Source: Flammula alnicola
Lineage: Eukaryota; Basidiomycota; Agaricomycetes; Agaricales; Strophariaceae
Reading direction: 5' to 3'
Assembly (NCBI GenBank): GCA_015499995.1
Contig: JADNRV010000086.1
Location: forward strand, 165,477 to 229,476
DNA length: 64,000 nt
Numbering within the stretch: position 1 is the first letter of the stretch; each line of letters opens with the position of its first letter. Positions 21,213 through 54,827 of this stretch are shown in pieces. Both the position numbers and the translations under genes were made by a program. The notes beneath the pieces were generated by a model. The model was not told the DNA's origin. It saw nothing but the letters and a program-made list of their open reading frames with translations, and did not search any database.

Positions 21213-23891
21213 ATGTCGGAAGAATCAATCACATCCGGATCATACCGAATTCAGCTACTGAAGGCCGACAATTGGATGCCGTGGAAGCGCCGAATGCTTG
21301 CGGTACTCACCGACCTTGGACTGGAGGAATATATCCAAAAGGAAGCCAAACCTCCAGAATCAGCCGATCCCAACAAACCGACACCAGAGGAGCAGGAAGC
21401 GCAGAAGAAATGGCGTGAGAAAGACGTCAAGACACGTTGCCGAATTGAGCTCGCGATCAGTGATGCCGAGATGATACACATCAGCGGCGCGACAACGGCA
21501 CGACAAACGTGGGAGCAGCTCACCACAGTCAAGGAATCCAAAGGCCGACTCGGAGTTTTGGCCACTCGGCGCGCGTTGTACAGGGCAACGGCGGGAGACG
21601 GATTTGACATGGTGGAGCACATATCTAAATTACGCCAGCTACAGGAGGAACTACATGTCATGGGTAACATGGTACCAGATGAAGACTTTGTAATGATATT
21701 AATTACATCTCTTCCGGAATCATGGGATACCTACACTACATCCTACCTCGGCTCAAGCGGCAACAAGCCGCAATTATCCTCTCACGAATTGGTTGCCATC
21801 TTATTGGAAGAAGATCGGCGCCGCAAAGCTAAATCAAGCGATCAGAATGCCGGCACCTCACTGCAAGCCCGCGGAAATAACAAAGGCAGTGGCGGACGAT
21901 TTACGAAATCGGAAAATGCGGACAAGGAATGTTATAATTGTCACAAGAAAGGCCACATGTCAAAGGACTGCTGGGCCAAGGGCGGAGGACGTGAGGGACA
22001 GGGACCCAAAGGCCGGCGAGGACCAAATCGGGCAGGACGCGCACATCAAGCTCAAGACTCGATCACATCAAACCTTAATGATGTGTCATATATGGCATTA
22101 GCGCCCGTTGATCAAACACGCGAATTCTCCAGATATGACTGGATACTGGACTCAGGCACAACATCACACATTTGCACAACACGAGAGGCATTCATTGATT
22201 ACATGCCGCTGAAAAACTCGACAGTGCAAGGCCTTGGGAGTCCAGCAATTGCAGAGGGACGCGGCACTGTTATTGTTAACTTTGCCGTGGATGGAAAGAC
22301 CCTATGCCACCAGCTTCGCGATGTATTGCATGTCCCTAATGCACCTAATTGTTTATTATCAATTAGCCGGCTTGATGACGCCGGAGGGCATGTAAAATTC
22401 ACCAAGGGAGAATGCTTCCTACAAGATTCCAAAAATAGAACGATCGGCAACGGCACGAAGACTAACCGACTGTATCTATTATTGGCACGCGCCCAATTGC
22501 CCGACAAGGAGAAAGCAAATTATGCTTCGCCGCAGAAGCTCACCTGGGATCAATGGCACCGGAGATTCGGACACATATCAATGTCGTCACTACAGCAACT
22601 TAATCGCGAGAACCTCGTTAACGGAATGATGATCGATCAAACCTCTATTCCATCACAGACCTGTGAAGCTTGTATTCAAGCTAAACAAAACCATAAACCC
22701 TTCCCGAAGGAAGCCGAACATCGATCAGAGGTTGCGGGAGAAGGTTTAATGAGTGACGTCTGGGGACCTGCTGGAGTGAAGTCAATTGGAGGCTTCAAAT
22801 ATTATATATCATTCACGGATGATGCCTTCCGCTTCAGCACAGTCAAATTTTTGAAGGACAAAACAGAGGCCACCCAACGGATCAAAGATCATGGCGTAAT
22901 GATCGAGCGCAAATTTGGAAGGTTCCCAAAATGGATGCGCTTCGATAACGGAACGGAATTAATTAACGCGGAAACGAAATTGTGGGCCGCAGAGCGAGGA
23001 ATCGAAATACAGGCCACTGCACCCTATTCACAGTCACAGAATGGTGTAGCTGAGCGCTTCAATCGCACACACTTGGAATTAGCACGAGCAATGCTAATTT
23101 CGAAGAAATTACCTGATTTTTTATGGGATGAAGCTGTCTCGCACGCGAATTACCTTCGAAATAGGGCGCCTACACGGGTGCTAAAGGGTCGCACACCTTA
23201 CGAGGCTTGGAATGGCTACAAACCAGATGTAGCTCACCTCAGAGAATTCGGATGCGATGTCTGGGTACTGGATGAATCCGAAAATCGCTCAAAGTTACAC
23301 CCAAAATCACACAAAATGATATTTGTGGGATTCAATGATGGCTCAAAATCTATCCGCTACTATGATGCCACCCACAGGAACATCAAATCCTCACGAAATT
23401 TTACCTTCAATGAGAATGAAGAACCCCGAGAACTCGAAATAACAACCGCTTTACCGGGTTTGCCATCCGAGGGGGAGCCAGAGGCAATTCCGAATGTCCA
23501 AACCCCCGAGGAAAATAAAATCGAAGACCCCATTGAAAAGCACCAAGAAAAGCGCCAATTACGCGAGAGGACAACTAGAATTGACTATTCTAAAGTCCAT
23601 AACCCACAATCTCGGACCTCTTCATCCAGATTTAATTCCCCAATCCCAGTTCCACTTCCTCCACCAGATATTACTCGTCCCACTGAATCCTCAAAGGCCA
23701 AGCAATCAGAACGAACCAATATTGCTATAAATGATGAAGATGATGAATTTACGCACCTCCTCAAGACGGCAAAGTATCCACCGGAAATTTCGATGCTATC
23801 CTCAAAGGAGAAGATATTCCAGCAAATATTGATGAGGCACTCAATGGACCGGATGCTAGGCAATGGAAAGAAGCTATTGACGAAGAATTAG
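21213..23891 (+). CDS. Copia Gag-protease-integrase polyprotein (first open frame)
   Basis: 892 codons from ATG 21213. In order: Gag; a CCHC zinc knuckle (CYNCHKKGHMSKDC) near residue 243; an aspartic protease site LDSGTTSH near residue 313; the integrase zinc-binding HH-CC region (HRRFGH and CEAC, about 447-490); and a DDE integrase core with the catalytic Asp in DVWGPAG (about 515), Asp in FDNGTE (about 577) and Glu in VAERFNRT (about 613), spaced 35 apart as usual. The C-terminal GKR-like and acidic segment follows. From about 23762 the correct frame is 2 downstream, so the last 43 codons are out of frame and the polyprotein is cut before reverse transcriptase. Confidence 0.95.
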   Translation: MSEESITSGSYRIQLLKADNWMPWKRRMLAVLTDLGLEEYIQKEAKPPESADPNKPTPEEQEAQKKWREKDVKTRCRIELAISDAEMIHISGATTARQTWEQLTTVKESKGRLGVLATRRALYRATAGDGFDMVEHISKLRQLQEELHVMGNMVPDEDFVMILITSLPESWDTYTTSYLGSSGNKPQLSSHELVAILLEEDRRRKAKSSDQNAGTSLQARGNNKGSGGRFTKSENADKECYNCHKKGHMSKDCWAKGGGREGQGPKGRRGPNRAGRAHQAQDSITSNLNDVSYMALAPVDQTREFSRYDWILDSGTTSHICTTREAFIDYMPLKNSTVQGLGSPAIAEGRGTVIVNFAVDGKTLCHQLRDVLHVPNAPNCLLSISRLDDAGGHVKFTKGECFLQDSKNRTIGNGTKTNRLYLLLARAQLPDKEKANYASPQKLTWDQWHRRFGHISMSSLQQLNRENLVNGMMIDQTSIPSQTCEACIQAKQNHKPFPKEAEHRSEVAGEGLMSDVWGPAGVKSIGGFKYYISFTDDAFRFSTVKFLKDKTEATQRIKDHGVMIERKFGRFPKWMRFDNGTELINAETKLWAAERGIEIQATAPYSQSQNGVAERFNRTHLELARAMLISKKLPDFLWDEAVSHANYLRNRAPTRVLKGRTPYEAWNGYKPDVAHLREFGCDVWVLDESENRSKLHPKSHKMIFVGFNDGSKSIRYYDATHRNIKSSRNFTFNENEEPRELEITTALPGLPSEGEPEAIPNVQTPEENKIEDPIEKHQEKRQLRERTTRIDYSKVHNPQSRTSSSRFNSPIPVPLPPPDITRPTESSKAKQSERTNIAINDEDDEFTHLLKTAKYPPEISMLSSKEKIFQQILMRHSMDRMLGNGKKLLTKN

Positions 23892-23905
23892 CAACATTAA
23901 AGAAG

Positions 23906-25390
23906 ATGGGAACCTGGGAACTCGAAAACTTACCACCCGACAGAAACCCAATAGGATGCAAATGGGTATTTAACAAGAAGCACGATGGAGAAGGGAAAAT
24001 AATCAAGTTCAAGGCTCGCTTAGTCGCACAGGGTTTCTCGCAGAAGCCTGGAACTGATTATAGCAATGACGGCACTTTCGCGCCTGTCATGCGCTTCGAA
24101 ACTTTGCGAGCGCTTATTGCACTTGCAGCAATTTACGGCTGGGACTTACGGCAACTCGACATCAAGGGAGCCTATCTAAATGGCTACATTAAAGAGGAAC
24201 TATATATGCGACAGCCACCCGGTTTCGACGATGGTTCAGGGCGTGTATGTCGACTTAGACGCTCGCTTTATGGACTCAAGCAAGCCGGCAATGTCTGGAA
24301 CAAAGAATTCGACACTGCGATGAAAGATCTTGGGTTCCAGCGTCTCAAGGCCGACTACTGCTGCTATAAACGACATAATGGCGACGATTTCGAGATACTA
24401 CTCGTCTGGGTAGACGATATACTCTCGATTGCGAACTCTAGCGCCCAGAACGACCTCGTGGAGCAACAACTCAACCAGAAGTTCGAAATCAAATCGCTCG
24501 GAAGACCTTCTATGCTCCTAGGCATGAAAATCACTCAGGATGAAGAAAAACAAACCATATGTATCTCACAGAAGGCCTACATCGAACAACTACTCAAGAA
24601 ATTCGGTCTACAAGACTGCAACATAGTCTCAACACCTATGGACCCAAATATTAATCTGGATAACTTCAGCAAACCTCAAAACGAAAAAGAAGCGCCCAAC
24701 GAAGCATCTGCAAGCTATGCAACGCTTATTGGATCCCTAATGTATCTGGCACACGGAACACGACCAGATATCGCATATGCTACGCAGAAACTCGCTCAGT
24801 ACACGAAAAACCCGCAGCCAGTACATTGGACCGCCGTCAAACGAATATTTCGGTACATCAAGGGCACACGCGAGTACGCGCTTACTTACGGAGGCTCAGA
24901 CGATGAATTAAACGAAGACCTCAATATTTATTGCGATGCCGATTGGGCATTTGACGCCGACCGCAAATCAATCAGCGGATATGTATTCAAAATCGCAGGA
25001 GGCGCCGTCGCATGGAGCGCAAAGAAACAAACCACAGTAGCTCTATCCACGGCCGAAGCAGAATATACAGCTGCTACTCACTGCGCCAAACAGGTACTTT
25101 GGTACCGCTCTTTATTCACAGAGCTAGGAATTCATGTTCCTACGACTTCAACTATTTTCACGGACAACCAGGCCGCCATCTCGATCGCGCACCACCCGGA
25201 ATTCTATTCAAGAACGAAACACATTGACATTTCGTTACACTTCCTACGCGATCTCGTACAGAACGGCACTCTCAATACTGTCTACATCAATACTGAAGAC
25301 AATCTTGCGGATCTATTCACCAAGGGATTACCTCGGACAACACATCAAGATTTCACACACGAAATCGGACTTTTGGACATGTCCGACTAA
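23906..25390 (+). CDS. Copia reverse transcriptase-RNase H (second open frame)
   Basis: 494 codons from the first ATG; the frame is open from 23762, where the protein continues the first frame. The reverse transcriptase starts with WELENLPP and GCKWVFNKK, and has QLDIKGAYLNG (catalytic Asp) and LLVWVDDIL, a variant of the YVDD box. RNase H follows with the Asp in YCDADWAFD, the STAEAEY Glu and the downstream DNQAA Asp. It ends in the usual place just before the purine tract and 3' LTR. Without frameshift repair or ribosomal slippage it could not be made as part of the polyprotein. Confidence 0.95.
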   Translation: MGTWELENLPPDRNPIGCKWVFNKKHDGEGKIIKFKARLVAQGFSQKPGTDYSNDGTFAPVMRFETLRALIALAAIYGWDLRQLDIKGAYLNGYIKEELYMRQPPGFDDGSGRVCRLRRSLYGLKQAGNVWNKEFDTAMKDLGFQRLKADYCCYKRHNGDDFEILLVWVDDILSIANSSAQNDLVEQQLNQKFEIKSLGRPSMLLGMKITQDEEKQTICISQKAYIEQLLKKFGLQDCNIVSTPMDPNINLDNFSKPQNEKEAPNEASASYATLIGSLMYLAHGTRPDIAYATQKLAQYTKNPQPVHWTAVKRIFRYIKGTREYALTYGGSDDELNEDLNIYCDADWAFDADRKSISGYVFKIAGGAVAWSAKKQTTVALSTAEAEYTAATHCAKQVLWYRSLFTELGIHVPTTSTIFTDNQAAISIAHHPEFYSRTKHIDISLHFLRDLVQNGTLNTVYINTEDNLADLFTKGLPRTTHQDFTHEIGLLDMSD

Positions 25391-42524: not shown

Positions 42525-43377
42525 ATATGAAGGATCACTCCGGTCTGATAGATGTCCTCCATCATGGATCGACAGATCGTGCGATCCTATACTTATAGCA
42601 AGGGCAGCACGCACAGATCAGCATCCCATTTACACGCTCGTGATTGTTTGAAATTTGACTGGCCTTGCTAGTGCTAATCACGGACCATGGCCTGGGATAG
42701 CTCCTCCAAGGGCTCATAACTGCGTGCGGAGTGCCACACTTACATGTTTCGGGAATTGGAACATCTCCTGTATTCGATTGCGACTATACATTCCTTTGTT
42801 AAAATGTGTCTTCAAACACGAGCTACTGATGAATCTCACATAGAATATTCTGAACAGCATCGTGGTAAAGCGATTTGCTGGGTATAAGACTGGATTCCGG
42901 ATGACAGCTCGATGGGGCTATTGGATTAGAAATGTACTGATCCACGCATATTTTTTAAACCTGAGGAAGAAAGGGTCGAGAGGAAAAACATTGGAGAAGG
43001 GAATGTAATGCGCGACGTTTCTTCTCCGGACAATGTTTGTCGGTTATAAGCGCCCGATCACGTGACAGGTTGGGAATCACCGAATTCAACACTTTCCGAT
43101 ATTGAATCAAAATGTTCCTTGTTTAACAATGGGCTCTACCTTCACCTGACTTCGACCTTTGCGTTGCCTTCATGTTCGCCGCTCTCCCTTTCATACATCT
43201 TGTCAACCGTAACTTAGAGATTGAGCCTTATACCTCTGGGTTATAACGAAGTGTTTCGGGGTTGCTCGACATCCAGAGCGTCAGACGGCAAAACCGGTGC
43301 GTAACAATGTTGGTTGATTTCGGGAGCTTATTAGCTCACATAAATGTGCCACCAGATTCCAATTATCTTGGGCTGCT
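42525..43377. other. Upstream region of K1; duplicated from about 43060
   Basis: From about 43060 to 43377 it matches 48430-48745 upstream of K2, including the E-box. Before that it is unique; no gene seen. Confidence 0.55.
43058..43065. promoter_or_regulatory. E-box palindrome TCACGTGA upstream of K1
   Basis: Lies 320 bp before the K1 ATG. The same octamer lies 314 bp before K2. CACGTG is a bHLH-type binding site; conservation here is partly due to duplication. Confidence 0.35.
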
Positions 43378-45725
43378 ATGCTCTCTTCAGATGATCCTTT
43401 TGCATCAATCCTCGAGGACGCGGTAGAGTACAACTACCCGCCATTGAAAACTCGGCCAGATGTCCCTCAGGCCATTCAGAACCCCATTACCTTCTACGAC
43501 AGACACCTCGACTCTAATTTAATCCTCAAACATATCAAAGCCGCAACTTCTCTTTCCCAGGACCTATCCGCTAAATGGGACGGGATGCTTGGAGCCTTTA
43601 CCGCAGCTGGTCACCATTTCTATCGCCACGAGTATCTGTTTCCCCAAAATGACCCGGCCACCATGGACGATTCTCAACATGTAGGGGAGCAGTATTACGC
43701 GTGTGTGGCGCGTGCGTGCATTAGATATGCCTCGAAGCTTTGCATCCATCCACAGGAGGTGTCTTGGGCGTGCTTGTTTGGGTTTTCGACATTCAATGTC
43801 GGATATGACGACGAAGAAAATCTATTTCTAACAGAAGGCAGATTGTTCCCCTTTTATAAATCCCTCTCTTCCAACCCCTTTATACCCCAATCTTTAGTCG
43901 AATCCTTTGACAAAGCAACTTTTGACATGATGGAAGACTTTCCTCGAACGTTCCCTTGGCTAGCTGTGTGGTCTTTTTTTGCTCTTACGAAATCTGGAGA
44001 GACTCTTGTGACTCGGATGAAGGCAACATCTCAATTTAAATGGGAAGGAGCGCATACAACAGGATACCCAACAACTACCCCGTTATGTCCTCCGCTGGAC
44101 GCCCCAAAGGCGGTATTACCCAACGAGACTATGCCGAAATATCAACGATCCAAACGTGTCGTGGCGAAAGGACCCAACACCAAACGCGACTTCTCGGCTA
44201 CTTCGACAACATCTCATGTCGTCATCGCTCCAATCCATGATAAAAGTTCAGCACTCAAACCTAAAGTTGTCCAGGTTAAAGTACCAGGTCGGCGCGGGGT
44301 GACTCGCCGGAAATATCGTCCTAATGGAAACGATTACATCCAGCGCGTAAGTCACTACATTATCCTACAGATCACTATTGCATTAATTCCTTCCCAGACA
44401 TGGGCATCGGCTGTGAAATATGATGCCACGTTCATGATTTTCAACTGTGGGACATACGAACGCATTGGTATACGTCATCGAGCATCTCAAACCCTCTACC
44501 TCTCTAATGCAATCGACACCGTCCACTGCAAGAACCCAAAATACAGGAAGATTCATATGGGACTGCACGTAGCCATTTTGCAAGATGCGCTGGAAAGGTA
44601 CAAAGCAAAAAAGAGTACCGGCGGATCGCCTACTACTCCAGGAACTCCCACTCGCAAGCGGTCTACAGAAAACTTAGAAAGCCCTCCATCATCTCCTAGC
44701 AAACGAAGGAAAGTCAGTCCGCAGACTTTCCCAAGGGTGTACAACGAGGGCGGAGTTTACAAGGCAGACGAAGTAGGTCGTTCACGATCTAGTCTCCAGC
44801 TTTGCTCATTCATTTTCTGTAGACTGCGAAAGAGATCAGCTCGCGAGAATTGGCAATTATCAGGCTTGACTATGAACATTATCGATCGCCGGTGCCATCG
44901 TCTTTCATTCGTCAGGGCTCGAGCTGTGTTCCTGGTCTGTTCGATGACTCTTTTAAGGAGCCGGACAGGAAAGCCGTGTATTCTTCCAGCCACTTCATGA
45001 CGATCACATTGCAGGCACCCATCGGAACAGGCGCCGTAGGTGTCATCCATCGAGCAGTCATCGAGGTCGAGACAGATTCCGGCGAAAAACTACACCACAG
45101 GTGTTTGGTAAAATTGGGTTTCTCAGAGGCGCAGCAAACATCGATGCGAAACGAATACAATATGTACGCGCACCTGGCTAAGGTTAAGACCGTCGAGGGT
45201 GTCGTTCGTGTTCATGGACTCTTTCAAGATATCGAAACCGGCACTATGGCTTTGGTGATGGATCATGGCGGCAAGAGCCTCAGGACTAGGGAGCTTGAAA
45301 AGGATAGCAAATTCAAGAAAGATGAAGTATACGTTCCGCAGGTAGAAGTGTGAGTTGTCCAATTACCTGCCTCTGCTCTGATCTGACACTTTGCGATCTC
45401 TAGCGATGCATTTTTGCGAGCGCTCGAAGGGATTCATCGAGGAGGGATACTTCACCGTGACATTCGGCTGGATAACCTCTTAGTTAACGAAGATAATGAG
45501 GTCTCCGTCATCGACTTTGATCGCGCTGGGTTGTGCGCCTACGCTGAGGTGTTTGCACATGAATTAGATGAATTACGGGGTATTGTGAATTGCATTGAAG
45601 AGAATGAAGGACGCGGTAAAGAAGACAACGATGGTGAAGAGGCGCAGGAGGAAGGAACAGAGTCGACCGAAGACGATGAAACTGACGAAACTGATGACAG
45701 TCTTTCACCACAGCTGACACCCTAG
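43378..45725 (+). CDS. Large kinase-like protein K1, active-type kinase domain
   Basis: Exons 43378-44346, 44398-44772, 44823-45349 and 45404-45725; 730 residues, phases consistent. Residues 1-250 are a domain shared with K3, where the putative nuclease residues are replaced (E153, S199, F201). Next come a WASAVKYDATF...IGIRHRASQTLY domain (about 324-380), a linker with NLS-like SKRRKVS (about 424) and the kinase domain: Gly-rich loop GTGAVG (about 518), likely Lys in CLVKLGF (about 544), catalytic HRDIRLDN (H641, D643, N648), and DFD (D661) in place of DFG. An acidic tail follows. Probably nuclear. The kinase type resembles lineage-specific basidiomycete kinases; substrate unknown. Confidence 0.85.
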
Positions 45726-45791
45726 ACCATACTGTAGAGACTCATATGTCGACCCTAATTTTCTGGCTTATTATTTGCTAATACCAGACGG

Positions 45792-47006
45792 TTGTGGCGA
45801 CGTATAGGCGAAAAACCTGCCCATGGAAAACTTATCATTTCTCTCTTCATTTCAGGCTACCTAGATACCGCACATCGCGCGCTCCAGTTGGACGAAATTC
45901 GAAGTTCTCCGGAGGACACCTGGCCGCCGCTGTATTACCTTGCTTTTGATGCAAAAGGCAATTTCCTGGGAACGAATACGGAGCCCACTAAGAGCGAGAT
46001 TGATCTGGTGCGCAACTGTTCTTGTAATTTCTAGTCCCAATCAGTGACATATCATTGCAGAATTTACTTGGAGAGCTCATGTCCGAGAATGTTATACCGT
46101 GCAGTCTTCTGTTGCCTTTTGCACGGACTGATGCCCTTCAACCCTGTCGTCGCGCTAATGATTTACCACAGGCAGCAATGTCGGTAGCCCGTGAATCGAG
46201 CCTGCGCCTTATGGCTCGCAAAATGATCTCAGAGAAAGTCTGGGAGTTCGAGCTGAGCAGAGTCAACGACAAGGGGCGAGAGCATGAATACTATTCGTCG
46301 CAGATGATCATGAAATTTGCCAGAAACGAAACGGAGTTAGCTGCCCTACAGGTCGAATATGACAATTACCGCCACCTTCGTCGTATCGCATCGCCGGTTC
46401 TGGTCCGAACTTTTGGGATCTTCACGTTCGATGCCAATCAAGATCTGTATGGCCTTCTCATGGACCATGACGGTCTCAGGTCTTGGTTACTCGCTGCACC
46501 ACGACAAGAGCCCTACAACACATGCAAGTTTTCTGAAGAAGCATAGGTCAGTCGGCCTAGAAGGTCATATTTCCTTTCGTTTCCAGAATACTGACATTCT
46601 TATTTCCAGTGCTAAAATCACCCAAGCGTTGGATACTTTGCACGGAATTGGCTTCACGCATGGAAAGCTCCTCCAGGAGCATTTCGTGATCACGAAGAAA
46701 GGGAAAGTGTCGATAATTAGCTTGGGATCATGCAAGAAAATTCTTTCGGTCGGCTTCCCAGAGATCACAAACTGGCAACCCAAATATGCGCCTGCTCCAC
46801 GTCGGCGTCCCGTCAGGACGCAAAGCCAGACACGAAGCCCTGATATTGGTAGCGATGAACTCATAACGAAAAGACACCAGAACAAGGAACGTAAAATGCT
46901 GTTGGGGTGGGTAACCGGAGACCTTCAAGACTCGGATTCGCCGGCAGATCGGGACCTTGCGCCCGTTTTGGAGGAGGAGGAAATAATGGAGGTCGACAAT
47001 GAGTGA
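45792..47006 (+). pseudogene. P1, broken pseudokinase paralogue of K3
   Basis: Begins inside the segment equivalent to K3 residues about 480 (GYLDTAHRALQLDEI), so the whole N-terminal half is missing and no ATG lies in the right frame. Introns at 46010-46063 and 46545-46609 correspond to those of K3. Near 46470 the frame shifts by one base relative to K3, after LLMDHDG. The kinase-like part has THGKLLQEHF where HRD should be and ISLGSC where DFG should be, as in K3. It ends with an acidic EEEEIMEVDNE tail. Non-functional in all likelihood. Confidence 0.75.
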
Positions 47007-47164
47007 ATAGATTTTATTTCATGACTTATTGTGTTGTAGTTTCTATCGATATGCAAACGTTGATCCTTGTCTAAGTATATGGATTTATAGGAGAATCAGC
47101 CAAATCGATGTTAGACACGGCTCACATTCAGAAGGTATTTACGGCCTAGTTGACAACGACCAGG

Positions 47165-47345
47165 TCGTCCGAGCAACTAGCCGACTTTGTTAAAATTGGT
47201 GACAACCTCATTCCGCAGTATCCAGACTGGCATTGATCGTGCCACTCTGCTCGCTGGCGAGCCTCCTCCACAGCAAGATTCTACGGGTCAGCTTCTCCCA
47301 TGCAGCGCATCTTCGATCATCTACAGACATCGAAGCACGCCACAC
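47165..47345 (-). pseudogene. Relic of the URB1 3' end
   Basis: Matches 54985-55165, the last URB1 coding bases, at roughly 80 per cent by eye, with the stop-side block CAACTAGCCGACTTTG and ACATCGAAGCACGCCA shared. Shows that the ancestral duplication reached into URB1. Confidence 0.85.
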
Positions 47346-48431
47346 GTCTTACAACCAACAAATCACTTTATATTTAAGAAGCTGCTCGAACCGCAATGCA
47401 GCATTTATCACCGGCTCATGTCCAGCATATTATAGGCAGTAATGGGGATCAATGCGCAGACCAAGGCCATTGTCGGCTCAAATGCATGTTCTTTGACAAC
47501 TAACGACCCTCTCAACCCGTAGGTTTTTGTCTCTTTCCAAGGCGCAGATAGTGGTATTTATCTGCGATTTAGGAGTGGCACTGCCAGTGTGATATCTAGC
47601 AACTTCCAACAATTGACTCTGGTCAATCTCGGACTCTCCAGATTTAACACGCCACTCGCTTGTACTCTCGCGATCACCAACGGTAGCGAGGTCTTCGAGG
47701 TTAGCTTCGTATGTATATCCTATGGACGTATCTTAGTACTGACCGGGATGTCTTCAGCCACATCTCTGTTACCTCGGAAACGGAGCTCTTGGGGGCCATT
47801 CGACGGCCAGGTTCAAGAGCTCAGAGGACTAACCCTGCAACCAATTTTTGGCTAACAGGGAGTCTCGACGTTTTCGCAGATACGGCTGCGATTGGCACGC
47901 GCTGGGTGCTGCGATTGGCACGCGCTGGGTGTATGCCTATTCAGACGATGGATTACCACGAGGGGGCATCCACTGTCCAGGTCTGTCGACTCCGTCGGCT
48001 TGTATCACCCTATAAATATTGACACCAAATTCTCGCAGTGTATACCCAGGGTGGTCCTGTGTGCGAAATCGTCTATGCTGCTGGGTCAAATAGTTAGGCC
48101 GTGCACACCGTTAGCGCACCTGGGTGGTAGATCTCGAAATAAATCTCGAAATATATGTATTCTTGGCTATTGACCACGTCTTTTTTAGCAATGAGCTGTT
48201 TCAGGCCTTTTCATTCTGTATAGCCATGGCACCGTAAGCAAACCGTGAGGGCCTTCTGGATCCGATCCTTATGGAACTCGGACTTGAGCCTGTGGATCCT
48301 AGTAAGGCCAAAGGTGATAGTGACTTGTTTGCCATTCAGTTGATAATTCCGAGTCTCTGCGGTAGCATTGATCGGACGGAACAGCAGCTCGGTTGCCATT
48401 ATTTCTTTCGCGGACCGCAATCATGCCGAAA
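47346..48431. other. Between duplication units; decayed coding-like sequence
   Basis: A plus-strand stretch near 47530-47860 has protein-like composition with one plausible intron (GTATGT at 47710 to TTCAG at 47757), but I recognise no family. A 23-bp exact tandem duplication lies at 47886-47931. Confidence 0.3.
47886..47931 (+). repeat. Exact 23-bp tandem duplication
   Basis: Units 47886-47908 and 47909-47931 begin CTGCGATTGGCACGCG and are identical. Confidence 0.9.
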
Positions 48432-48439
48432 TCACGTGA
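48432..48439. promoter_or_regulatory. E-box palindrome TCACGTGA upstream of K2
   Basis: 314 bp before the K2 ATG, counterpart of 43058-43065. Confidence 0.35.
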
Positions 48440-48745
48440 CAAGTAGAAATTACCGAATTCAACACTTTCCAATATTGAACGTTGAACGTTCTTTGTTACC
48501 TCCTTGTCCGACCAATGGGCTCTATCTTTTGACCTTAACCCTTCATGTTCGCCGCTCTCCCTTTCATCCATATTGCCAACTGTAACCTAGACATCGAGTA
48601 GCTCTGGGTTATAGCGAAGTGCGTCCGGGTTGCTCAACGATCAAGAACTACATCAAGCTCCAACCTGGTGCGTTAGAAACTTAGCGCATTTCGGGAGCTT
48701 GTTAGCTCATAAATATGCCACCAGATTCCCATTGATTTGTCTGAT

Positions 48746-51084
48746 ATGCTCTCCCCAGATGATCCTTTTGCACCGATCCTCGAGGGCACGTTGGATTACA
48801 ACTTCCCGCCATTGAAAAATCAACCAGATGTCCCTCGGGCCATTCAGAACCCCATTACATTCTACGACAGACATATCGACTCCAGTTTAATTCTCAAACA
48901 TGTTACGGCAGCGACTTCTCTTCCTCAAGATCTGTCCGATAAATTCGACACGATGGTTGAAGCATTCACCACGAGTGGTCATCACTTCTACCGCGAGGGA
49001 TACCTATTTCCTCAAGATGAGCCAGGTACTATGCACTATTCTGATTCTGTTGGGGAGGAATATGATGCGTGTGTGGCATGTGCATGCATTAACTATGCTT
49101 CGAAGCTATGCATCCATCCAGACGACTTGACTTGGTCATCCTTATTTTCGTTTTCAACATTCAATCTCGGATACGACGACGAAGAAAACCTATTCCTGGC
49201 AGAAGGCAGATTATACCCTTCTTATGACTCTCTGTCTTCCGACCCCTATATACCACAGTCTTTAGTACAGTCCCTGGACAAGGCGACTTTTGACATGATG
49301 GAAGAGTTTCCTCGAATCTTCCCTTGGCTAGCTGTGTGGTCTTTTTTGGCTCTTACGAAATCTGGAGAGACGCTCGTGACTCGGTTGAAGGCTGCATCTC
49401 AATTCAAATGGGAAGGTGCACATACAATAGGATATCCAGCGACGTACCCATTACCGCCGCCTTTGGATGCCCCAAAAGGAGTATTGTCAAGCCGGATTAT
49501 GCAAAAATCACAACGTTCCAAACATGGTTCGACAAAACTCTTTATTCCCCATCTTGACCGGTCGACTCCTTCCTCGGCCATTCCAGCCACCGCTACGTGG
49601 GCTGTTCGACAAGACAAAAACCCCGCCCCAAAACTTAAAGCCGTCCAGGTTAAGGTGCCAGGCCGGCGGGGGTTAGTTTGCCGACAATATCGCCCTAACG
49701 GAAATGATTATATCCAACGCGTAGGTCTTATGGAATGTTTTCGGTTTACCGCGCGATACTAATATTTTTCCAGACATGGGCATCAGCTGTTAAATACGAT
49801 GCGACGTTTATAATATTCAACTGCGGAACGTACGAACGCATCGGCATACGTCATCGAGCATCTCAAACGCTTTATATCTCTGATCCAATTCACACCACTC
49901 AGTGCAAGAACCCAAAGTACAGGAAGATTCATATGGGACTGCACGTTGCCATTATACAGGACGCCATGGAAAGATACAAAGCGAAGAAGAGTGCTAACGG
50001 GTCGCCCGCTGCTCTCGAGACTCATGGGCGTAAGCGATCCGTCGAGCATCTAGAAAGTGCGGTATCGACTCCGAATAAGCGCCGGAAAGTGAGTCAGCAG
50101 GACTTACCTACGGTTTACAATGAAGGCGGTCATTATAAGGCAGAGCAGGTAAGTTATTCTGCATCTTGTCATCGGGTATGTCCAATCTGATTTGGCAGAT
50201 TGAGAAAGAGATTAGCTCTCGAGAAGTGGCCCTCATCAGGTTTGATTATGAGATCTATCGCTCACCGGCGCCTTCATCTTTTATACGTCAAGGTTCAAGC
50301 TGCGTTCCGAGTCTGTTTAAGGAAGCCTTCAAGCAGCCGGACAGGAGAACTAAATATTTTTCCACCCATTTTATGACCATCACTTTGGAGGCGCCTATGG
50401 GAAAAGGTGCCGTAGGTGTCATCCATCGCGCAGTGATCGAGGTCGAGACAGCTTCAGGCGACAAACTCCATCGTAGATGCTTGGTAAAACTAGGTTTCTC
50501 GGAGGCGCAGCAGAGATCGATGCGAAACGAATACAAGATGTACTCTTACCTGGCTTTGGTTGAAGCTGTTGAAGGGGTCGTCCGTGTTCACGGCCTTTTC
50601 CAAGATATAGAAACTGGGACCATGGCTCTAGTGATGGACTACGGAGGAAAGAGTCTCAGGGTCAGAGAGGTTGAAAAGAACAGCAAATTCGAGGAGGATG
50701 AGGTTGTCGTCGCAAAAGAGGAATTGTAAGTTTTCTATTTACTTTCGCTTCACCTTCTGACGGCCAATCATATGTAGTGATGCTTTTTTGCGAGCCCTCA
50801 AGGGGATTCATCGAGCGGGCGTCATTCATCGAGATATCCGGATCGACAACCTTCTGGTTAACGAAGATAATGAGGTCTGCATAATCGATTTCGATCGTGC
50901 CGGGTTGTGCCCAGACCGAGATGTATTTGCGAAGGAAATAGACGAACTGAGAGACATTGTGACTTACATCGAAGAAAATGAGGGCGACGAGGAGGAGGAG
51001 GAGGAGGCCTTTGAAAAAAGAGATCGAGGCGAGCATGACGAAGATGAGGGCGGAACTGACGAAAGTCCCTCACCTCTGCCATAG
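48746..51084 (+). CDS. Large kinase-like protein K2, active-type kinase domain
   Basis: Exons 48746-49720, 49774-50148, 50199-50725 and 50778-51084; 727 residues. I start at ATG 48746, which aligns with K1; an in-frame TTG upstream is ignored. Architecture as in K1: an N-terminal domain with AEGRLYP and WSFLALTKSGETL (no ExK), the IGIRHRASQTLY domain, NLS-like NKRRKVS, a Gly-rich loop GKGAVG, CLVKLGF, HRDIRIDN and IDFDRA, then an acidic EEEEEEA tail. It differs from K1 mainly in the 230-320 linker and the tail. Intact frames and phases in both copies point to selection to keep them. Confidence 0.85.
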
Positions 51085-52135
51085 CTGGACTTTTTATACC
51101 GTATCGACCAGGTAAATTATATATTTTTATATCTAGCCTTTTTGTCGGCCGCTTCTCCTTGACGGCGGCAAGCCTTACTCATTGTAACGTTGAAATCAAG
51201 TGATGAGAAGTTTTGATAAAGAAGCCAGCACATACAGTATCCTTATTATCGTAATTTAAATTCGTAGCAAGTTCAACCCCTAGCAATCCCTGTGCCCCAG
51301 GCTACACCGAAGATCTTTTTTGTTCCAGCTATATTCCAACTATATTCAAAACGATAGACCTTTTTTGGCCGACGTTCAAGTCAAGACGTTGTTCCTTGGT
51401 GGTTTGTTTGTTTGTACGCTTGTTTGTAAGTAGGTAGCTAGCCAAATAGTAGTCATCCCAATTTCAATTTGGGCCGTCATCGATTATCGTCGATCGAGAT
51501 CCCTGAGGAACTGAATCCCTGAAAGTTCAACATTCGTCTTTAGCTACGTTCCTCGCCAACCAGCTCTGTACTTCAGAACAATTATTATACTAGTAGGGTT
51601 GTGGTTCAAGTTGTCAAGGGGAATAGTACAAATCGTCCTGATCGGCACCTATTTGGCACCGTCTGATGAACAAAGTCAACAAACAAACCGCTGAGGAGCA
51701 ACGTCAACCTCAGGAAAACCATTGCATACATATATATTATGTTCTTGGTGCACAGATGGCGGTTGCCAAGAGGCCGCCACTGGTCGTTTTGTATTGTGCT
51801 TCACACAAAAGCTTCAGCGCTCAACATTCAAGCTTGGGAACAACCATTCCGAATCCAAGGTCGTCTTGTATTGCCGACAATTAAGTGCTGCCTTGTAAGT
51901 CTCCGTGATTTGTATCTACCTTGTCCCTAGTTGACCTGGTAACCAAACGTTAAGCTATTGCCAGTCATCAACTTTCCGGAAAGATGAACAATTGTAACAC
52001 CCAATTTTTTTTTTGTTTCTGCTATGCATGTCGATTAAGCTTTTCTAAGTGGGCCCACATTACCAGCACCACAAAGAGTATAAATTGCACCACCAATTCC
52101 ATAGACAAGAACGATTGTTAGTCCAAATCATCCAC
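51085..52135. other. Spacer between K2 and K3; no gene seen
   Basis: Absent from unit 1, where K1 and P1 are only about 70 bp apart. Contains TTTG microsatellite runs near 51400 and an upstream T-run (52006-52015). Probably the promoter of K3. Confidence 0.45.
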
Positions 52136-54827
52136 ATGTCTCATCGCACTATTCCCATCCTTGTTGGCACCCCACAATGCAACTCAACGACGCTGTTGGC
52201 ACCTGGCCCTAGCACCATCCCCGTCACCCAGGCGCCGGTCAGAAACCCTGTCGCAGCGATGTCGTCCTGGCAGGTTTCGTCATGCCTTTTGTCCGGAAAT
52301 CACGATGGTTCGTCTGTGAATCCTAGCATCACGGGGGCCACGTGCAGTTCTTCTCAACCTGTGGAGGAAGCTACTTCGGGCTGGACGACTCGCGATCATA
52401 TGCTGGATTTTTTCAAGTGGAAGCCGGCTACTTATGCCAAAGCAAAAGCTCACGGAGCTTCCTGTGGCACCAGGGCCCCGAGGCGCTTCGATTTACACAT
52501 GCACCAAGACCTACAAATGAAGAAGGTAGTAGTACTCGACGGTCTGGCTGGAGTGCTTTCAAGGCTTGGCAACGAGTATCTTCTAGACGAGCGTGCACCC
52601 TGGAACTCTTTTGAAGTTGATGTTGACAAAAATCTCTTCCCCCACGCCAAGCGTCGTGCAGATGTTCTTAAAAAAATCCCTAAAATAACGCGAGAAAGGT
52701 CTCTAGCGCAGGTCTATGGAACACAAACAGGGAAATTCTGCTCAGCCGTTGCTTCGAGCCTCATCTTCAAGTCGTCAGAATGGAACCGTGTTTTCAAATG
52801 GCGGATAGAACCGAGTAATCCCCAGCGCTTCGCCATAGCCGATGGCTTTCTGTCGATTGATGAGAAAATGATCGGCTGCTTGTCGAACGAAGACAAACTC
52901 AATGTGGAGGCAATAACACGACACGGTCTGGACAATTTTGCGCTTTGGGAATTTAAAAGTCTGACCGCCGGTACCGAAAACGTCATGAATGCGCTTGCAG
53001 CCCTTGAGGGCGACTTCGAGTGGATAACATGCCATTCCGTCAAAGACTTGGAACTCAGTGACGTCGAGAGGTGTGACCACACGCAACACGTTGTGAATGG
53101 GCGTTGGGCTTTAACCGGGAGTAGGGTTGGTCCCGATGCCAATGATCAGTGGATTACTGACGCCTGCAAGGAAATGGAATACCATGAAGACCTCGAAGCT
53201 CGAGCTGGATCGGCCGCTCCATCTGGTCAAACTACAACTTCGCAAGGCGGCCACAACATTGGCAAAGCACGAGGACCAGCGAAGACAAAGGCAAAGACCC
53301 TGAATAACCCGAAATCCTTGAAGAAGACTTTGATACAAAAACCCACGGTCTCGCCAAGGCGCGAATTCAAACTTAACGAGATACAGAAAGCGCGCCATAT
53401 CCTTCAACAGGTAATGCTCTGTTAACATCCCTTTTCTCGTTAATAACATCTTTCGATTCCTAGGGATGGGCGGAAGCGGTCTTAAATGATGCTACATTCA
53501 TTGTCTTTACATCCGGCAATTTAGAGATAATCGGTATTCGACACCGAGAACGGCAAACCCTCTACATATCTCCTCTGATTTACTCCACCAAAGAAGAAAA
53601 TCCTTCACACGGACAACTCATGACCTCCCTCTTCATTGCGGCCTACCGAGACGCCGTAGACCGCGCCATCCAGTTGGATGCAATCGGACGTTGTCCACAG
53701 CACACTTGGCCGGCTCTATATCGCCTAATTTTCGATGCGAACGGCAATTTCATGAATACGACTTCAGAGCCCGGCGAAAGCGCCATCAATATTGTGCGTA
53801 GCTGTTCTTGTGGTAACCATTTCTATTCAACGAGATAATATTATTAGAGCTTATTGCAAGAGCTAATGGCTGTCGACGTCATATCATGCAGCCTTCAGCT
53901 ACCTCCCCGGATTCCTGAACTACAACCCTGTCGTCGCCGCAGTATCTTGATAGGTACAACCCCGATTGAACATGACTCGAAGCTGCGCCTTCTCGCTCGC
54001 AAAATGATCACAGAAAAAGTTTGGGAGTTTTCTCTGTGCAGAGTCGACGACGACGACAAAGAGTGCGAATACTACTCCTCTCATTTGGTCGTGAAATTTG
54101 CGAGAGATGAAATGGAGTTAGCCGCCCTATTGGTCGAATACGACAACTACCGCCAACTTTCTGGTATCGCATCGTCGGTTCTGGTTCGGACTTTCGGAAT
54201 CTTCAGTTTTGACGCCACGGAGCATCTATATGGACTTCTCATGGACCATGGCGGTCTGAATCTTAGTCAGCGGCTGCAACGCTACAAGAAGCCTAAGACC
54301 CATGCAAAATTTCTGAAGGATAATAGGTCAGTCGGCGATCGCTGGATTCATTTAATACCCAGAATACTGACATTCCTATTTTCAGTGCTCAAATATTGGA
54401 GGCGTTAGATACTTTGCACGGAATTGGCTTTATTCATGGAAGGATCCTCAAGGAGCATTTCGTGATCACAAAGGGAAGAAAAGTCTCGATAATCAGCTTG
54501 GGATCATGCAAGGAAATTATTTCTGTCCTCTTCCCAGAGGTCACAGATTGGCAACCCAAGCATGCTTCCTCTAAACGCCGTCGCCCTGTCAAGACACAAA
54601 GCCAGACACGAAACCCTGTCCTTGGTAACGACGAACTTGTAACGAAGAGACATCAAACCAAGGAACGCAAAATATTGTCGGGGTGGCTAACTTTAGAGAC
54701 GTTCAAGGACAAAGGTTTGCGGGCAGACTCGAATCTTGCGCCAATTGAGGAGGAAGGGGAGGAGGAGGAGGAGGAGGAGGAGGAGGAGGAGGAGGAGGAG
54801 GAAACAATGGAGGTCGACCACGACTGA
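52136..54827 (+). CDS. Pseudokinase K3 with nuclease-like N-terminal domain
   Basis: Exons 52136-53410, 53464-53793, 53848-54326 and 54386-54827; 841 residues. Starts MSHRTIPILVG. The N-terminal domain (about 85-330) has IADG (D236) and LWEFKSL (E272, K274), which looks like the D...ExK core of restriction-endonuclease-fold nucleases. Then come a WAEAVLNDATF...IGIRHRERQTLYIS domain (426-470) and a kinase-like domain in which the catalytic loop reads IHGRILKEHF (H712, G713, R714; no Asp) and the DFG position reads ISLGSC. The tail carries a run of Glu encoded by GAG/GGA repeats (54748-54808). Intact despite losing kinase residues, so a scaffold or regulatory role is plausible. The nuclease call is inference. 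Confidence 0.8.

Follow-up and report, generated by a model that had tools for sequence, protein, structure and literature searches.

A candidate two-gene conflict module in Agaricales, with kinase and putative nuclease residues divided between adjacent paralogues

Introduction

Why should neighbouring paralogous genes each conserve the catalytic residues that the other has lost? This question is raised by a window of 64,000 nucleotides (C845:165477-229476 of the 74 Mb Flammula alnicola (Agaricales) assembly, 861 contigs; coordinates given without a contig are those of this window), which carries a head-to-tail array of four members of one gene family, K1-K3'-K2-K3. The original prediction, made from the window's letters, had described K1, K2 and K3, proposed that a kinase and a putative PD-(D/E)XK nuclease were split between them, and linked them to Crinkler-type proteins. 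Its inventory was right for these three genes and overlooked the fourth, K3' (45806-47006, + strand), which was found directly behind K1 and hence gives the array its order. We propose, with slightly less than even confidence, that K3 and K1/K2 form a two-gene conflict module in which old paralogues have shared out the activities that the spore killer SPOK unites in a single protein. There is direct support for the gene structure, the reciprocal loss of motifs and its conservation, recurrent adjacency, a low ratio of nonsynonymous to synonymous substitution rates (dN/dS) between diverged paralogues, in live and dead domains alike, and the loss or breakage of K3 among haplotypes that keep K1.

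Reciprocal loss of catalytic residues

K1 (43378-45725; exons 43378-44346, 44398-44772, 44823-45349 and 45404-45725; 730 amino acids (aa)) and K2 (48746-51084; exons 48746-49720, 49774-50148, 50199-50725 and 50778-51084; 727 aa) are 71% identical and read as kinase-competent paralogues with an apparently dead nuclease domain. K3 (52136-54827; exons 52136-53410, 53464-53793, 53848-54326 and 54386-54827; 841 aa) reads as a nuclease-motif paralogue with a putative pseudokinase. All three, with every codon and domain given below, lie on the + strand and are intact, as had been predicted: the spliced models have four exons each, GT-AG introns of 50-59 bp and zero internal stops, and the K2 model has the length of the annotated F. 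alnicola protein P0006. The Pfam kinase domain is recognised in K1 (E 2e-13) and K2 (E 5.7e-15) and falls below the cut-off in K3 (0.012). K3 is nevertheless a full-length homologue of K1/K2, since hhalign aligns the K3-class and K1-class profiles all the way from the N-terminal domain into the kinase (541 columns), with a probability of 100 and E 8.7e-54.

The motifs on which the split had been proposed were all found. K3 carries IADG from residue 234 and EFKSL at 272, so that the numbering of D236 (codon 52841-52843), E272 and K274 (ExK codons 52949-52957) is exact, and it lacks both HRD and DFG, reading HGRILKEHF at 712 (HGR, 54435-54443, where HRD is expected) and ISLGSC at 731. K1 reads TEG at 152, WSFFAL at 198, IGIRHR at 346, HRDIR at 641 (catalytic-loop Asp D643, codon 45459-45461, from the model and motif table) and IDFD at 660 and, like K2, retains the kinase motifs and has lost the nuclease lysine.

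We tabulated these sites in 40 sequences, 29 of the K1-class and 11 of the K3-class, whose row counts are not independent events, the C129/C778 and C67/C79 copies being near-identical. Our results show that D, E and K (D236, E272 and K274 of K3) are invariant in the K3-class (11/11 rows); free variation among orthologues, which would have spoken against the original prediction, is thus not seen. In the K1-class the K274 column holds lysine in 0/28 readable rows (F in 16, Y in 8, L in 3, G in 1), D is kept in 4/29 and E in 10/28, and zero rows have all three together. In the kinase, 26/26 K1-class rows that reach the sites have the HRD Asp, the Asn after it and the Asp of DFG/DFD, versus 0/6 K3-class rows, in which the position of the catalytic-loop Asn is always His; C129 K3d, a full-length gene outside these six rows, likewise reads HNG and ISL. 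Both residue sets occur together in 0/40 sequences, rows ending before a site being scored as without it. As the class pattern holds across 40 tabulated relatives, it is not due to chance.

The table contains one decayed K1-class copy (C848). Left out of it and of the counts built on it are proteins P0004, P0005 and P0016 and 7/16 K1-class models (C156:18554, C156:23899, C156:54425, C156:60920, C797:7873, C507 and C685). On the K3-class side, the models or pieces at C156:20986, C156:34345, C156:57570 and C67:81844 are likewise left out, as is K3' of the window. P0006, P0008, P0009 and P0011 are represented by their gene models. The rows left out are alleles, decayed copies or fragments, none of which has the opposite pattern where the site is readable.

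Column conservation further shows that neither class has lost the scaffold of its dead domain altogether. Of 22 nuclease-domain columns that are invariant in the K3-class, the K1-class keeps 5 in 75% of its rows or more (P115 28/29, D119 27/28, H121 28/28, L126 22/28 and D334 29/29), and the K3-class retains the beta-3 Lys (8/8) and the alphaC Glu (7/7), most other kinase invariants being gone. The two classes also share a middle domain (IGIRHR...QTLY; 53464-53685 in K3, counterparts at about 44398-44628 in K1 and 49774-50004 in K2), in which 18 columns are at least 90% conserved over both. This domain has no Pfam family match and is also carried by a 150-aa metagenome fragment, P0032. Between it and the kinase, the NLS (nuclear localization signal)-like KRRKV of K1 was located at aa 425, and a loosely defined basic patch stands in the linker of 28/29 K1-class rows; such patches weakly suggest a nuclear location.

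Predicted fold of the nuclease-like domain

The putative PD-(D/E)XK domain of K3 occupies aa 84-334 (52385-53137). An alignment-based AlphaFold2 model of it has a mean predicted local distance difference test (pLDDT) score of 68; ten-residue means lie at 80-91 in model residues 101-140 and 151-190 but at 64 in 141-150. A helix (104-127) is followed in the model by strands 137-141 and 153-158, helices 160-165 and 168-179, strand 184-189 and helix 198-206. In this predicted helix-strand-strand-helix-strand-helix, D236 (model residue 153) opens the second strand, E272 (189) ends the third and K274 (191) stands two residues further; this order and residue placement are those expected of PD-(D/E)XK, whose alpha-beta-beta-beta-alpha-beta core carries D and ExK on strands. 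Going by the predicted model, the domain likely has this fold.

The fold claim of the original prediction is consistent with motif and predicted topology, yet Foldseek and VIA-align searches with the K3 domain model returned no convincing match of any kind. Pfam, NCBIfam and PADLOC searches with the domain gave no significant match either, and both results count against a nuclease. The failure to find a fold or family match would suit an alternative in which the D..ExK domain is a conserved binding or other enzymatic domain, there is no nuclease, and the pair is a kinase-pseudokinase signalling complex; paralogue pairs of this kind are known, for example poxvirus B1 and its pseudokinase (PMC6395007). 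We regard this as decidedly unlikely, because D, E and K are invariant at the predicted second and third strands and the lysine is gone from every readable row of the class with the live kinase.

A separate feature lies at the back of this region, where K3 aa 299-318 (about 53030-53089) hold a Cys..Cys..His set that is invariant in 11/11 K3-class rows, mostly missing from the K1-class and possibly metal-binding.

Age of the split and selection

In a maximum-likelihood tree built from 39 rows, which also leaves out the C67 K3 fragment, a single branch (support 100/99) parts the two classes over Flammula, Agrocybe, Cyclocybe and Hypsizygus. Because both classes hold all four genera and one branch separates them, the K1/K3 split is probably older than these genera. 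Furthermore, the partner clades are roughly parallel. With moderate support, two Agrocybe copies join Flammula K1/K2 (89/88), and the clade of Flammula K3 also takes in two Agrocybe copies and one from Cyclocybe (93/94). The C129/C778 genes form a clade of their own on each side of the tree (100/100).

Estimates of dN/dS (NG86) between K1 and K2 are 0.21 for the pseudonuclease, 0.08 for the middle domain and 0.07 for the kinase, and between K3 and its C797 paralogue (K3b) 0.17 for the nuclease, 0.12 for the middle domain and 0.39 for the pseudokinase, values that are rough since synonymous distances are near or above 1 in diverged pairs. Neutral decay, that is, random domain loss from a bifunctional family, would account for the decayed copies K3', C797:7873, C156:60920 and C848 and for dN/dS reaching 0.6-1.5 in places among near-identical copies. 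It is very improbable, being largely contradicted by the 11/11 versus 0/28 and 26/26 versus 0/6 patterns, and the single separating branch and the dead-domain values of 0.21 and 0.39 in diverged paralogues also argue against it.

Recurrent pairing

In the Flammula genome search, whose counts are lower bounds that include alleles and two K3' relics and take the two C67 pieces as one, a K1-class gene was found on the same contig as every K3-class model (10/10), at distances of 81 bp to 8.1 kb and within 2.8 kb in 9/10 cases. A K3 N-terminal fragment (C156:53373-53600) and weak kinase-only matches on C212 stand outside these gene-model counts. Conversely, 12/16 K1-class models have a K3-class neighbour; the other 4/16, which have no K3 on their contig, are C79 and C848, on contigs of at least 228 kb, and C507 and C685, which are contig-end fragments.

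Outside Flammula, a K1-class neighbour was seen for 3/5 K3-class proteins. In Agrocybe, g1615 is near g1617 and g1619, both K1-class (contigs of equal size, 45,698), Hypsizygus 003555 is near the K1-class 003546 by locus tag (contigs both 317,311), and Cyclocybe P0002 is one gene model running from K3-class into K1-class. The split first proposed from this one locus, in which neighbours divide kinase and putative nuclease residues reciprocally, is real, old and recurrent.

Loss of K3 among haplotypes

The other haplotype of the window was found on C156, in pieces 95-99.9% identical. Its K2-K3 interval is 7.2 kb longer (window 51548-51732 versus C156:26697-33941), the longest stop-to-stop frame being 206 aa, and C156 carries, close to the first array, a second and inverted one, K1-K3-K1 (C156:54425-63259; cf. 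C797:1381-10178). Copy number also differs between C129, with two K3-K1 units, and C778, with one.

In four cases K3 is lost or broken and K1 kept. The first is K3' itself, a 5'-truncated K3-class relic that lacks both start and nuclease domain; what is left, from the last part of the middle domain through the pseudokinase, has a disturbed frame. At the junction (45805/45806), where the K1 3' flank meets the middle of a K3 gene, the left side (43032-45805) is 95.4% identical to C156 K1b and the right side (45806-47093) 94.4% identical to the 3' half of C156 K3b; judged by these identities, K3' is the product of a deletion that took away the nuclease half of a K3 gene and brought its second half up against the K1 3' flank. 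The second is the C67 K3 gene, interrupted by 7.5 kb (C67:83271-90816) with reverse-transcriptase-like and RNase H-like frames (read from the printed frames). The third is the absence of K3 from C79, the haplotype matching C67: K1 is kept there, and the stretch that in C67 holds K3 and measures 11.8 kb is replaced by 1.7 kb. The fourth is a one-gap frameshift in exon 1 of the C156 K3 allele. In total, 4/10 K3-class genes are broken (both K3', the C156 allele and C67), and every K3 that looks intact has a K1-class neighbour that looks intact.

Sequence exchange between copies may also have taken place. Conversion may explain why the K1 copies of the first and the inverted array show 95-96% identity, and the K3 block at 51733-54790 is 99.87% identical to C156:33942-37000, with adjoining blocks at 98.9% and 97.1%, which hints at recent conversion or spread.

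A two-gene model and its main rival

We infer a mechanism with K3 as the poison and K1/K2 as the antidote. K3 would act as a PD-(D/E)XK-type nuclease whose dead kinase domain is retained for docking or regulation. K1/K2 would act through an active eukaryotic-like kinase, their dead nuclease domain being retained as a partner or decoy surface. K1/K2 would bind K3 via the shared middle domain or the nuclease-like domain, phosphorylation of K3 or of its target would block cutting and killing, and the action would take place in the nucleus. A bolder version, possible and in our eyes doubtful, would see in the family an old polymorphic two-gene nuclear poison-antidote system of Agaricales, derived from a duplicated SPOK-like bifunctional nuclease-kinase, in which K3 cuts DNA and kills nuclei or spores that lack K1/K2, and the dead domains form a lock-and-key interface.

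The main rival assumes the same biochemistry in a form that is useful to the host and not selfish, in which the pair would serve host defence or quality control against transposons, mycoviruses or foreign dikaryon nuclei, the K1/K2 kinase holding or releasing the K3 nuclease. The pair is old and broad, its dN/dS is low between diverged paralogues and 6/10 K3-class genes look intact, all of which suit such a role, and in restriction endonuclease (REase)-kinase proteins the kinase is thought to regulate the nuclease (PMC5289972). On the other hand, loss of K3 with K1 kept, K1-only loci and copy-number differences between haplotypes are more typical of poison-antidote pairs, though also of recognition loci, and we consider the host-useful version on balance unlikely.

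Several further observations weigh against the two-gene conflict module. Decayed copies exist in the K1-class too (C797:7873, C156:60920 and C848) and, together with the 6/10 apparently intact K3-class genes, they mean that a host-useful function fits as well; moreover, an assembly error could account for the C156 frameshift. Near-identical copies, which differ by few changes, give higher dN/dS, namely 0.75 (K1 versus its C156 allele) and 1.51 (C129 versus C778) for the pseudonuclease and 0.61 for the whole K3-class gene (C129 versus C778). A K1-class neighbour is not visible at the loci of 2/5 K3-class proteins outside Flammula, Agrocybe g8927 (P0001) and Cyclocybe P0030. Seven species of six genera (Hebeloma cylindrosporum, two Psilocybe, Gymnopilus junonius, Pluteus cervinus, Mycena filopes and Armillaria gallica) have K1-class matches with no K3-class counterpart among the matches listed, which may reflect true absence, poor gene models or incomplete candidate lists. 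With the pattern tried, the basic patch appears in only 6/11 K3-class rows. Finally, the K1-class has lost non-catalytic K3 invariants as well (H106 kept in 2/27 rows, R113 in 1/29, G328 in 0/28; also T112), so that its nuclease-like domain seems broadly rebuilt and not merely switched off. A loss aimed at the catalytic residues alone was considered and rejected on this column conservation.

Relation to known systems

REase-kinase conflict proteins are already known, in the form of Crinkler-RHS-type (CR) effectors and of SPOK. In SPOK from Podospora and Fusarium, as in the present family, a putative PD-(D/E)XK nuclease stands ahead of a eukaryotic-like kinase with its catalytic Asp near the C-terminus (PMC6660238, PMC9972908, PMC12693581), and copy number is variable in both. 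SPOK requires the nuclease residue K240 for killing and the kinase residue D667 for resistance, its kinase being ELK-like and compared with the Kdo kinase (PMC6660238), and its killing damages DNA (PMC6660238, PMC9972908). Here, the PD-(D/E)XK catalytic residues are found, at motif level, in the K3-class only (11/11), and the eukaryotic-like kinase with a catalytic Asp near the C-terminus in the K1-class only (K1 D643 of 730). The Pfam Kdo family scores 23.9 in K2, above its cut-off of 21.3, and 18.5 in K1, below it; at E up to 10 it matches 14/20 K1-class members (best 6.1e-8).

SPOK differs from this family in holding both activities in one protein instead of two adjacent paralogues and in belonging to Ascomycota, not Agaricales; killing by the present family is a proposal, and the strongly conserved middle domain is shared by the K1 and K3 classes and sets them apart from SPOK. 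One result adds to the points against our reading: the SPOK cluster C-x3-C-x13-C-x5-H-x7-H before the kinase occurs in 0/40 sequences, as an exact or a loosened pattern. The likeness drawn here is to published descriptions of SPOK, and no match of that name was among the homologue-search matches listed. Since neither the single-protein arrangement nor the Cys cluster is found, we do not file the family as SPOK and propose instead that it would work like SPOK, which by analogy is a closer functional parallel than the Crinkler effectors.

The fungal kinase family FunK1 (Pkinase_fungal, PF17667) was considered and rejected as an assignment, with 13.4 bits for K1 and 13.7 for K2 against a cut-off of 24.1 and no match for K3; at E up to 10, it matches 6/20 K1-class members (best 0.00038).

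The Crinkler link drawn in the original prediction is not supported, and the nuclear complex and the defence or effector system also raised there are conjectural. A Crinkler-type secreted effector acting in other organisms is the least probable of the explanations weighed here, as no Crinkler header was among the Pfam matches of K1, K2 and K3 at E up to 1, the N-termini are neither hydrophobic nor secretion-like, and the host is a wood saprotroph. What speaks for it is that CR effectors couple a kinase to a REase-fold domain, a combination that makes up about one sixth of CR C-termini, and are directed to the nucleus (PMC5289972). Unlike the present pair, they have a header domain and a secretion-like start and are encoded by one gene, not two.

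Two further systems are comparable by analogy only: the Wolbachia pair CifA/CifB, in which to our knowledge CifA is not a kinase, and the vaccinia B1 kinase with its paralogous pseudokinase, named B12, a pair for which we know of no nuclease domain. CifA/CifB resembles the proposed module as a two-gene toxin-antidote system with a REase-fold toxin and inactive REase domains; it is bacterial, and the accessible part of its description mentions no kinase part (PMC11342252). In the vaccinia pair, paralogues have opposing effects (PMC6395007).

No report of a nuclease/kinase split between neighbouring paralogues, or of a SPOK-like system in Agaricales, was found in a literature search judged by titles and abstract beginnings, with partial match lists and most subscription papers outside its coverage; a query combining Spok and Agaricales gave no paper. 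The way in which the kinase of SPOK counters the nuclease of the same protein is described as still open (PMC12693581); a natural split with the dead half retained would allow separate tests of poison, antidote and contact surface. If the two-gene conflict module is real, SPOK-like logic would extend into mushroom-forming fungi, and in the bolder version the pair would be a candidate killer driver for them.

Genomic context

The array is flanked on the left by phosphatase and weak WD40 matches (38-41 kb) and on the right by a gene with a NopRA1 domain (55.8-56.3 kb). Further to the left, a Copia-type retrotransposon lies at 21213-25390, its two adjoining frames matching gag, integrase and reverse transcriptase. 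Within the array, the spacer between K3' and K2 contains a short tandem duplication at 47885-47931, in which GATTGGCACGCGCTGGGTG is present twice.

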